Assembly: GCA_013153715.1 (NCBI GenBank)
Contig: JAADDW010000038.1
Span: forward strand, 1-44,976
Source of the DNA: Campylobacterota bacterium
GTDB taxonomy: Bacteria; Campylobacterota; Campylobacteria; Campylobacterales; Nitratiruptoraceae
Length of the DNA stretch: 44,976 nt
Direction: 5' to 3'
Of the stretch, positions 25,917 through 30,429 are shown piece by piece. How positions within the stretch are numbered: the stretch's first letter is position 1; each line of letters opens with the position of its first letter. Made by a program: the position numbers and the translations under genes. The notes beneath the pieces were generated by a model. The model ran no database searches and was not told the DNA's origin. It saw nothing but the letters and a program-made list of their open reading frames with translations.

Positions 25917-27113
25917 CTACTCATTTCGGAGGACCGAGATAACATGGAGTTGGGTCGCCTTCTTGGCCGGATAGATGGCGGAGAGGGTGATGATGATGAC
26001 CGCCCCCCCAATGATGGAGAGGAGGTCTATGGGGCTCAGATCGAGGGGGAGGTGGGAAGTTCCATAGACATCGGCTGGGAGATCGACAATGTCGAAATTT
26101 TCCAGAATGAGAATCCCCAGGAGCCCCAAGGCCGTTCCACAGAGGATCCCCAGCCCCCCAATAATCGACCCCAGTCTGAAGAAGATCCCCTCTATCTCCT
26201 TGGGAGTCGCTCCGAGGCTGAGGAGGAGGGCGATCTCCTTCCGTCTGTTCATGACCGTCATGAGGAGGGAGCTCACGATGTTGAGGGAGGCGATGAGGAT
26301 GATGAGCATGAGGACGATGAAGAGGGCCCTCTTCTCCATCTTCAGGGCGGCAAAGAAGTTTCCATTCTGTTGCCACCATCCGACGACCCCCACCCCCTCG
26401 GGGAGGACCCTCTCGATCCGTTCCCTATCCCGCTGGGGATCTTCGGAATAGACATGGATTCCGCTGAACCCCTTCTCCATTCCGACTATCTTCCGCATGG
26501 CGGAGAGGGTGGTGTAGGAGTAGGCCCGATCGTAGGCTATGAGGCCGGAGCGGAAGTAGCCGACTACCCGAAACCTCTTGAAGATCGGTGTAATGGAGAA
26601 CCCTGTAGGCTGGGCCCTGGTGAAGATGAAGAAGAGCCTATCCCCCTCCTTGAGGAGGAAGTTGTCCCAGAGCTCCTTTCCGACGACGGCTTCAAACCCC
26701 TTGGGGATAACCTCCACCCATTTACGGAGTACCCCATTTATTCGGAGCTCCCTCTCAAAATCGACTCCGAAGAGGACCCCCCCCTCCAACTTCTCCCCCT
26801 TCCTGTAGATCACCTGGGAGGAGATGTAGGGGCTGAAGAGGAGGTCGGGGAAGCGGCTCTCCAGCTTCTGGAGGAGCTCCTGGTCCAGGGTCTGGAAGAA
26901 TTTGGGGTAGATGGTGAGGGGGTAGTTCATGGTGAAGAGTTTCTTCTCAAACTCCTTGTCGAAGCCGTTCATAATGGCCATGGCGACAATGAGGACCATG
27001 ACCCCGACAGTGATGCCGAGGAAGGCCAGGAGGGCCGAGAGGAAGATAAAAGGTTGCTCCCTGTCGAAACGGAGGTAGCGTCTGACGATGAAGGAGATGA
27101 GCCGTTTATCCAT
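25917..27113 (-). CDS. lolC: LolC/LolE-family lipoprotein-release permease
   Basis: A 398-residue inner-membrane permease with the MacB/FtsX-like plan: one membrane segment at about 24-48 ([29 protein letters not shown] is its core region), a ~220-residue periplasmic domain, then three C-terminal segments. RRYLRF near the start, [19 protein letters not shown] and [19 protein letters not shown] at the end are typical of LolC/LolE. With an ATPase (LolD, not in this window) it would release lipoproteins to LolA, encoded 2.8 kb away. The start overlaps the secA stop by 8 nt. The symbol could equally be lolE; many Campylobacterota have a single permease type. Confidence 0.85.
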
Positions 27114-29703
27114 TGGCCGTCGCTAGTACCCCCTTTTTGGGACCGCTCTTTCCACAGCACTGTTTATATTTCTTCCCACTGCCGCAGGGGCAGGGATCAT
27201 TTCGGGCCGGTCTCTTCTTCTTGGGGAGCTCTCCCGGTTTCTGGGGCTCCTCCTCCCCATGTTTGAGAATGGCCTGCTCCTTGATCTCCTGCTCCATCTT
27301 GGCCAGCTCCTCCTCAAGTTTCCTGATCTGCTCCTCTTCCTCCTCACTGCGGATCTGGATGAGGTGGAGGGTCTTGATGGCCTCATGTTTGATTCTGTTA
27401 ACCAACTCTACGAAGAGGTTGTAGGACTCCTTCTTGTACTCGACCAGAGGATCCTTCTGATTGTACCCCCTCAAACCTATTCCGGTCTTGAGAATATCCA
27501 TCTGGTAGAGGTGCTCCCGCCACGCATTGTCCAGGACCTGGAGATAGAGGATCCGCTCTATCTCATTCCGCTGTTCCGGAGCGAGAGGGGCCATCTTGGC
27601 TTCATACTCCCCTTCCAATCTCTGGAGAATATACCCCTTCAGATCCTCGTAATCCCGATCCTTCAGCTCCTCTACTGTGAAGTGGGAACCAAGCTCCTCC
27701 TGGACCATTTTGACCAGCCGATCCAGGTTGTAGTCCTCCTTGGGCATCTCTGGAAAGATCTCTGCCTGGGCGAGGAGGAAATCGACAAATTCCTCCCTAT
27801 TCTGTCTGATTCTCTTCCCAATATCGAACTCTGGATTGAGGAGCTCCTGGCGGAATTTGTAGATGGTCTTCCGCTGTTCGTTGGCCACGTCGTCATATTC
27901 GAGAATATGTTTCCGGGCCTCGAAGTGGAGGTTCTCCACCTTCTTCTGGGCCTTCTCCACGGCTCGGGTTACCATCTTAGACTCAATATGTTCCCCCTCC
28001 TCGATACCGAGGCGCTCCATGATACTCTTGATCCGATCTCCTCCGAAGATTCTCAGGAGGTTATCTTCCAGGCTCAGGAAGAACTGGCTCTCCCCTGGAT
28101 CTCCCTGCCGCCCCGCCCTTCCCCGGAGCTGGTTGTCGATCCGGCGGCTCTCGTGGCGTTCCGTTCCGAGGATGAAGAGCCCTCCCAGCTCCCGAACCTC
28201 ATCGTCGATTTTGATGTCGACCCCCCGTCCCGCCATGTTGGTAGCCACGGTGACGGCCCCCTTCTTTCCGGCCTGGGCGATAATCTGGGCCTCTTTTTCG
28301 TGGTGTTTGGCATTGAGGACGGTATGGGGTATCTTCTCCTTCTTCAGGAGCTGGTGGAGGAGTTCGTTCTTCTCGATGGAGGTGGTCCCCACAAGGACAG
28401 GCTGTCCCTTCTTGTGGAGCTCCTTGATCTTGCGGACGACCGCCTCAAACTTCTCCCTTTCACTCTTGAAGATGAGGTCGTCGTGGTCCTTCCTGATGAC
28501 AGGTTTGTTGGTCGGAATGGAGATCACCTCCAGGCCGTAGATCTCCGCAAATTCGGCGGCTTCGGTCTGGGCCGTTCCGGTCATACCGGCCAACTTTTTG
28601 TACATACGGAAGTAGTTCTGGAATGTGATGTCGGCCAGGGTTTGGCTCTCCTCCTGGATCTCAACCCCCTCCTTGGCCTCCAGGGCCTGGTGGAGCCCCT
28701 CACTGAACCGACGCCCCTCACTGAGCCGTCCTGTGAATTCGTCAACTATGACCACCTCCCCATTCTTCACAACATAGTCCACATCCCTCTGGAAGAGGTA
28801 GTTTGCCTTGAGGGCCTGGTCCAGGTGGTGGGCCAGAATGGCATTTTCCAGGCTGTAGAGGTTGTCAACGCCAAAGAGCTCCTCGGCCTTGGCGATCCCC
28901 TCCTGGGTCAGGAGGACGACCCGATCCTTCTCGTCAACTGTAAAATCTCTGTCCCGCTCCAACATTTTGGCGATCTGGTCGGCCTTTACATAGTTGTCCA
29001 GCTTCCTATTTGTGGGACCCGAGATGATGAGGGGGGTCCGGGCCTCATCGATGAGGATGGAGTCAACCTCATCCACAATGGCGTAGTTGTGCCCCCGCTG
29101 GACCATCTCCTCCAGGGAGTATTTCATATTATCCCGCAGATAGTCGAAGCCAAACTCATTGTTGGTCCCGTAGGTGATGTCACACCAGTACTGCTCCTTC
29201 CTCTTCTTGTCATCTTGGAGGTCGCTGGTGAGACACCCTGTCGTGTAGCCGAGGAAGGAGTAGAGTTTTCCCATTTCGGTGGCGTCCCGTTTGGCAAGGT
29301 AGTCGTTGACGGTGACCACATGGACCCCCTCCCCCGTCATGGCGTTGAGGGCTACGGCCAGGGTGGCCACCAGGGTCTTCCCCTCCCCGGTCTTCATCTC
29401 GGCGATCTTTCCTTCGTGGAGGACCATACCTCCGATGAGCTGGACATCGAAGTGGCGCATTCCGAGGACCCGCTTGCTGGCCTCCCGTGTAATGGCAAAG
29501 GAGTCCTCCAGAACCTCATCCATACTCTTCTCACCACTCTTGACCTGCTCCCTCAACTCGTTGAAAGCCTTCTGGAGCTCCTCGTCGCTATACTTCTCAT
29601 ATTTGGGTTCTAGGGCGTTGATCCGCTTCACCCGTTTCTGGTATCGTCTGAGTTCCCGATCATTCTTTGTGCCGAAGACCTTCCGCACCACACTTTTAAG
29701 CAT
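27106..29703 (-). CDS. secA: Preprotein translocase ATPase SecA
   Basis: An 865-residue SecA motor for the SecYEG channel. Walker A MKTGEGKT (103-110), VNDYLAKRD, Walker B-region [21 protein letters not shown] (its first 20 residues are the conserved core), [10 protein letters not shown] and [12 protein letters not shown] are all present. A C-terminal SEC-C zinc motif binds SecB or phospholipid (Cys838, Cys840, Cys849, Cys850 in [13 protein letters not shown]). The ATG at 29703 has AAGGA nine bases upstream, a rather long spacing. The 198-bp gap to divergent lolA contains a probable transposon remnant, which leaves little conventional promoter sequence. Confidence 0.97.
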
Positions 29704-29721
29704 GGGAGAAATCCTTACTTG

Positions 29722-29832
29722 TTAATTTTGACATCCCCCCGTCTGGGAGTGGGGGATTCTGGCTTGAAAGCGGTAGGTGTCGATTCGAGCCACTCCTCTA
29801 CCCTCTCTGCCAAGGGTCGATGCCCCAACCCT
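29722..29832 (-). pseudogene. Remnant of IS200/IS605-family tnpB 3' end with terminal hairpin
   Basis: On the minus strand 36 codons read RVGASTLGREG, then VARIDTYRFQARIPHSQTGG, then a TAA at 29724. This resembles the variable C-terminal tail of many TnpB proteins (family pattern VGAST.GGE...ARIP, recalled, not searched). It runs into CCAGAATCCCCC and a hairpin ATCCCCC/GGGGGAT (29733-29757) ending in GGATGTCA, the usual look of an IS605-type right end. No transposase body, RuvC motif or left end is visible, so this is a fossil of about 110 bp. An unrelated GC-rich secA leader hairpin is the alternative. Confidence 0.5.
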
Positions 29833-29861
29833 CTCCACTCTGTCGATGTAGCGAAGTTTGG

Positions 29862-29867
29862 TAAAAT
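29862..29867 (+). promoter_or_regulatory. -10 box of lolA
   Basis: TAAAAT in AGTTTGGTAAAATTGTAAC, five of six matches to TATAAT, with T-rich sequence upstream and no clear -35. A start near 29874 would give a leader of about 28 nt before the lolA ATG. Confidence 0.55.
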
Positions 29868-29901
29868 TGTAACACATCATGGATAACAGAGAAGGAGTCC
29901 C

Positions 29902-30429
29902 ATGGGAAGAGCTCTCATTGCCCTCCTCGCCCTCTCCCTTCTCCTCTGGGGAGGTCGGGGGTTGGATGTGAGGACATTCAGCAGTGATTTTGTCCAGAAG
30001 GTGAGGAACGATCAGAATAGGACCATCGAGTATCGGGGAACCGTCTATTTTCAGGCCCCCAATCTGACCCACTGGATCTACAGGGAGCCCATTGAAAAGG
30101 AGATCCTCTTCGATGGGAGACGGCTCATCATGGTAGAACCCCAGCTGGAACAGGTGACCATTACCTCCCTCAAGAGGGAGGAGAATATTCTCGCCCTGCT
30201 CCAGAGGGCTCGGGAGGTGGAGCCGGGAATCTACCATCTTGAGCTCAACGGTAAGGAGTTTCAGATCGAAACGGGAAAGGGGGGGAAGATAGAGAGAATT
30301 CTCTACAGAGACGATCTGGGAAACGATGTGGAGATCACCTTCCTCAATCCCAAACAGAATGGAGAGCTCTCTCCCTCCCTCTTCCAGATAGAGATCCCCC
30401 CCTCCTACGACAGAATTTATGAGGAGTAG
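29902..30429 (+). CDS. lolA: Outer-membrane lipoprotein carrier protein LolA
   Basis: A 175-residue periplasmic chaperone that ferries lipoproteins from the inner membrane permease to the outer membrane. Residues 1-20 form a signal peptide (MGRALIALLALSLLLWGG). The mature part has the LolA pattern: SSDFVQKV, IEYRGTVYFQAPNLTHWIY, KEILFDGRRLIMVEPQLEQ, and a conserved C-terminal DVEITFLN. The length fits the family. GAAGGAG sits five bases before the ATG. It diverges from secA-lolC, placing secretion and lipoprotein sorting at one locus. Its stop is 18 bp from the convergent acnB stop. Confidence 0.88.
   Translation: MGRALIALLALSLLLWGGRGLDVRTFSSDFVQKVRNDQNRTIEYRGTVYFQAPNLTHWIYREPIEKEILFDGRRLIMVEPQLEQVTITSLKREENILALLQRAREVEPGIYHLELNGKEFQIETGKGGKIERILYRDDLGNDVEITFLNPKQNGELSPSLFQIEIPPSYDRIYEE

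Follow-up and report, generated by a model that had tools for sequence, protein, structure and literature searches.

Results

The secA leader contains a miniature IS608-type element

The window, by which we mean the whole 44,976-nt stretch of contig JAADDW010000038.1 analysed here (Campylobacterota bacterium, assembly GCA_013153715.1; genome G000), carries secA and the divergent lolA. In the gap between them lies a 133-bp miniature element of the IS200/IS605 family, IS608 type, placed between the secA -10 box and the ribosome site and in the sense orientation relative to secA (Table 1). The initial annotation had noticed a TnpB-like C-terminal peptide and a terminal hairpin on the secA strand, both of which are present, and had proposed that a tnpB 3' end and an IS605-type right end form the secA leader, which is borne out by direct homology to the right ends of tnpB genes in congeners. 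Its interval, 29722–29832, needs correcting: the right end is at 29728, six bases away, and the left 28 bases, up to 29860, were missed.

Table 1. Features of the secA–lolA region (window coordinates).
Feature	Position	Strand	Basis
secA	27106..29703	-	ORF; first 133 residues 93% identical to G003
secA ribosome site GTAAGGA	29712..29718	-	gap comparison; conserved in empty-site relative G003
Guide-equivalent, first 20 nt beyond the right end, AATTAACAAGTAAGGATTTC (secA leader and ribosome site)	29708..29727	-	position
Miniature IS608-type element, 133 bp, 3' of TTAC, ends TCAA	29728..29860	-	G003 empty site; covariance model
TCAA, right cleavage site (C_R)	29728..29731	-	sequence, alignment; IS608 C_R is TCAA
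Right-end subterminal hairpin CCCCC...GGGGG	29735..29755	-	folds
GAAT, IS608 right guide sequence (G_R)	29756..29759	-	sequence; G_R per PMC5934647
Scaffold domain, closing TGGC/GCCA, inner stem GGTAG/CTACC	29760..29811	-	folds; inner stem covaries between copies
Stem A of the omega-RNA-like scaffold, AGGGTTG GGGCAT CGACCCT; encodes VGASTLG in tnpB	29813..29832	-	folds, covariation among copies, tnpB C-termini
Left-end remnant, imperfect hairpin CTTCGCT-(10 nt)-AGTGGAG	29833..29856	-	sequence, centroid fold, C26 copies and G008/G013 elements
TTAC target tetranucleotide (C_L), left flank	29861..29864	-	empty site; IS608 rule, PMC5934647
secA -10 box TACAAT; TAAAAT/TACAAT in relatives	29866..29871	-	comparison of 20 secA–lolA gaps
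lolA, divergent neighbour	29902..30429	+	ORF; homologues beside secA in relatives examined

We read the secA–lolA gap of G000 and of 19 other genomes, 20 in all (that of G002 is cut near a contig end, with the same short gap visible), and the element is absent from the gap of all 19. The closest relative, G003 (SecA N-terminus 93% identical), presents an empty site, in which TTGTAC is followed directly by AACTAAAAAGTAAGG, as compared with TTTTAC, the 133 bp and then AATTAACAAGTAAGG in G000. With longer flanks, the sequences are GTTACAATTGTAC/AACTAAAAAGTAAGGATTTT in G003 and GTTACAATTTTAC/CAAACTTCGC...GGATGTCAA/AATTAACAAGTAAGGATTTC in G000, slashes marking the junctions. Since the G003 gap lacks the element, it gives both boundaries, and the insertion is a precise one 3' of TTAC with no target duplication. 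The comparison of sister genomes suggested with the initial annotation therefore reveals a lineage-specific insertion and not a genus-wide secA leader; the idea of a fossil tnpB element holds in that the sequence is tnpB-derived, but it is a miniature with its own TTAC left boundary rather than the in situ decay product of a full transposon.

The longer ORF that runs through the leader and contains the peptide (29722–30237, minus strand) was rejected as a gene because most of it lies antisense to lolA and nothing in Pfam matches it. This would suit an ordinary secA leader that resembles a TnpB tail by chance, an explanation already refuted by the exact empty site in G003 and by the finding of multiple homologous copies within G000 as well as in congeners and other genera; its probability is negligible.

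IS608 inserts 3' of TTAC, with C preferred as the next base, and uses TCAA as right cleavage site and GAAT as right guide (PMC5934647). The element starts right after TTAC and ends in TCAA, as IS608 does, and GAAT, the subterminal hairpin and TCAA follow one another within 29728–29759. At the left end, a short imperfect hairpin follows CAAA; the IS608 pattern is a hairpin preceded by G_L AAAG, and congeners keep GTAAAGCCCC...GGGG. This hairpin is far shorter than in related elements (the C26 copies and those of G008 and G013), and by alignment the spacer before TCAA is 3 nt shorter than in active-looking relatives. Homology links the right half of the element to the 3' ends of intact tnpB genes of the same genus, which encode the C-terminus RVGASTLGIGEVRPAIAGISA and continue into the GAAT–hairpin–TCAA right end; VGASTLG and the scaffold are shared with the intact tnpB of G008 and G013. 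In these congeners the sequence is the tnpB 3' end itself: the proteins end in HDRDVNAAINICRVGASTLGIGEVRPAIAGISA, followed by GCCAGAAT, the hairpin and GTATGTCAA.

At 133 bp the element is too short for a transposase and encodes neither Y1 TnpA nor TnpB. No Y1 transposase was detected in G000 and no intact tnpB, only short TnpB fragments; as the genome is a 48-contig draft assembly (98% complete), a tnpA or tnpB may have been missed. The initial annotation had suggested looking elsewhere in the genome for full-length tnpB with the same 3' end; such genes are present, intact, in congeners, and this genome holds fragments only. Separately, the sole PF07282 match in G000 is what remains, in decayed form, of the C-terminus of a TnpB from another subfamily (G000:C45:7604-7702; L004, L120).

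Further copies in the genome and a second empty site at trxA

A covariance model trained on eight copies, the window copy among them, matches the window copy in its own genome with E 1.1e-15. Because the model includes this copy, independent support is needed, and it is provided by the congener tnpB ends and by a plain DNA search of the same genome, which recovers a further copy at C26 (44 bases at 91% identity, E 5e-11). Rfam, scanned over 29400–30200, holds no family for the element, the sole match being a weak lncRNA below threshold. There are eight model matches in G000, of which two are weak and some are decayed full-length tnpB ends (C15, C43) and not miniatures. The genome contains about seven further degraded copies besides that at secA, in agreement with a dispersed miniature that has a related autonomous element.

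Two of these degraded copies stand in tandem and make up most of the trxA leader (G000:C26:59070-59370; L002 1342-1642). They occupy a TTAC-derived site just past the -10 box, and G003 is again the empty site: TATAATTTTAC/TCCCAAAAACC in G003, as compared with TATAATTTCAC/A, B/TCCCTAAAAAAATCC in G000, A and B being the two copies. With two independent empty sites, at secA and trxA, the reading as a transposon is secure.

Both insertions lie immediately 3' of a -10 box on the non-template strand, an observation limited to these two loci. Targeting of single-stranded DNA in the open promoter complex was considered and set aside, given that only two loci are concerned and the pattern is not common to the copies of relatives. 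Two other degraded copies, G000:C21:26073-26189 (L074) and G000:C15:36662-36771 (L068), lie in sense orientation, each ending a few dozen bases before an apparent start codon; since intergenic positions are few, this placement may be chance.

Most related miniatures carry a TATAAT box before the omega-RNA scaffold

Within the family, the model finds matches in only 5 of 22 genomes: G000 (8), G007 (4), G008 (26), G009 (1) and G013 (15), copies at contig ends included. G013 holds both a full-length TnpB (C17) matching PF01385 and PF07282 and, at C59, a Y1 tnpA and a tnpB enclosed by these same left and right ends; the C59 tnpB contains an assembly gap and is apparently internally deleted. The miniatures of relatives measure about 205–226 bp, and TTAC directly precedes about 21 of the 25 related solo copies whose left end is readable (counted by hand, allowing a one-base choice of register). 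More broadly, in a sample of 397 genomes of the class the model matches 24, in nine genera, several of the matches being tnpB-linked with the IS608-like right end CCCCTAGCTTTAGCTATGGGGAGTATGTCAA in other genera. One genus with many matches, g16, is presumably Helicobacter. A shorter related element type, with the end GGGGAGTTCGTCAA, occurs in G013 (C94; L100) and G008 (C19:7412-7506; L093) with near-identical flanks in both genomes, and is apparently an older shared insertion, to judge from those flanks.

An exact TATAAT is found 8–12 nt before the omega-RNA scaffold in 26 of the 30 tnpB-unlinked copies with a recognisable left end (L052, L059, L070, L126, L146 and others), copies within one genome not being independent. 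Among tnpB-linked copies, TATAAT lies within 30 nt in just 1 of 17, at a different position and inside coding sequence. At least two families of genomes have different upstream sequences, which means that the arrangement either arose repeatedly or was kept. The box in the family genomes is similar to the promoter of tnpA in the full element and may therefore be a mere by-product of deletion.

A predicted omega-RNA-like fold persists in the window copy

By predicted pairing, the scaffold fold is conserved across copies, as in an omega-RNA, and the window scaffold is predicted to fold into the same three domains as those of its relatives. RNAalifold yields a weak consensus for a 12-copy alignment, owing to misplacement of the inner stem in that alignment, and stem pairing was therefore counted by script. 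Against shuffles that ignore the relatedness of the copies, pairing of the inner stem (placed by best register in real and shuffled data alike) is 0.796 vs 0.705 (0 of 3000), and that of stem A is 0.886 vs 0.832 (35 of 5000). The window copy alone is only modestly above shuffles, with z of -1.58 for the scaffold and -0.90 for the whole leader. The ribosome site is predicted to be little altered in accessibility, at 0.53 with the element, 0.41 without it and 0.51 ± 0.16 with a shuffled one; for the start codon the predicted value is somewhat lower with the element (0.05) than without (0.20).

Such a fold might have been co-opted as a functional 5' UTR, its 5' stem-loops protecting the secA (and trxA) mRNA or tuning translation. 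The sense placement between a conserved -10 box and a ribosome site in two housekeeping leaders is in keeping with this role, as is the persistence of the fold with compensatory differences between copies. However, those differences may be older than the insertion, the window-copy fold surpasses its shuffles only modestly, and absence from all relatives with a readable gap makes the role at most lineage-specific. We consider it unlikely.

The locus also has the anatomy of a guide RNA, with scaffold, right end and flank in order; in IS200/IS605 elements the guide starts at the first base beyond the right end (PMC10711439). The initial annotation had raised, as speculation, an exapted guide-RNA-like role. 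For a live trans-acting guide, the transcript from the secA promoter would be the omega-RNA and the secA leader its guide, loaded by TnpB or a TnpB-derived repressor. The guide-equivalent has no second TTAC-preceded match in the genome at up to three mismatches, and as the occupied site has no TTAC beside the guide, only the empty allele could be a target. Without a second target, and with TnpB found in the draft G000 genome as short fragments only, the guide role is unsupported even though the omega-RNA fold is kept. The element is not conserved either, and we regard a live guide as highly improbable.

Discussion

The segment upstream of secA is very probably an immobile, non-autonomous IS608-type relic that has become the secA 5' UTR, has no guide function and does little harm. 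A Y1 transposase acting in trans would have inserted the element, and the genome would since have lost that enzyme. Lying between the -10 box and the ribosome site, the element is almost certainly co-transcribed with secA, presumably as the first ~130 nt of the mRNA. Its RNA would fold in an omega-RNA-like manner and leave the ribosome site 3' of it intact, and the element would persist because little harm is done. The simplest account is that of a relic that is neutral or close to it; a leader function is possible and a live guide unlikely. The shortening of the left-end hairpin and right-end spacer relative to relatives speaks for the relic; against it, the scaffold has diverged yet retains its complete fold, which drift would erode in time, and the secA and trxA copies share a promoter-proximal position that could reflect retention by selection. 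The secA case provides a clean example of a transposon fragment turned leader of an essential gene, with its exact empty site known.

The wider family of miniatures matters more than this single copy. From their sequences, the solo elements have the look of omega-RNA genes in the form of miniature transposons. We tentatively suggest, as a proposal that has somewhat less than an even chance of being right, that the Campylobacterota miniatures may be mobile omega-RNA genes (left end, own -10 box, scaffold, right end and flank guide) served by TnpA and TnpB in trans, and that the secA copy would descend from these, the host gene having taken over its promoter role. With both proteins acting in trans, TnpB would still cut the vacated site of a protein-less element, and the element would be restored. 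If the promoter-bearing miniatures do function with TnpB supplied in trans, then elements without genes, too, would be retained through RNA-guided cutting. We found no published account of promoter-bearing omega-RNA miniatures in the literature searched, one key study of TnpB and transposon retention lying outside its scope.

Among known systems, the would-be model for an exapted guide is provided by TldR-type repressors, exapted TnpB proteins with guide RNAs; unlike in those systems, no TnpB-like protein adjoins the element or is found intact in the genome. As with TnpB omega-RNA (reRNA), the element derives from the tnpB 3' end and right end and has a predicted multi-stem fold common to its copies, but in this genome it has no nuclease partner. 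It resembles IS608 (ISHp608 of Helicobacter pylori, IS200/IS605) in its position 3' of TTAC and in GAAT, subterminal hairpin and TCAA, and tnpB-linked elements of the class share the closely similar right end CCCCTAGCTTTAGCTATGGGGAGTATGTCAA; it differs from IS608 in having neither tnpA nor tnpB, a shortened left-end hairpin and a right-end spacer shorter by 3 nt. Finally, the palindrome-associated transposable elements (PATEs) of Haloquadratum are transposase-free core-deletion derivatives of IS605-type elements that have subterminal palindromes and do not duplicate their target (PMC3119063). The elements described here share these traits with PATEs and with miniature IS605-type elements generally; a possible difference from PATEs is that they keep the whole omega-RNA scaffold, preceded in the related solo copies by a TATAAT.
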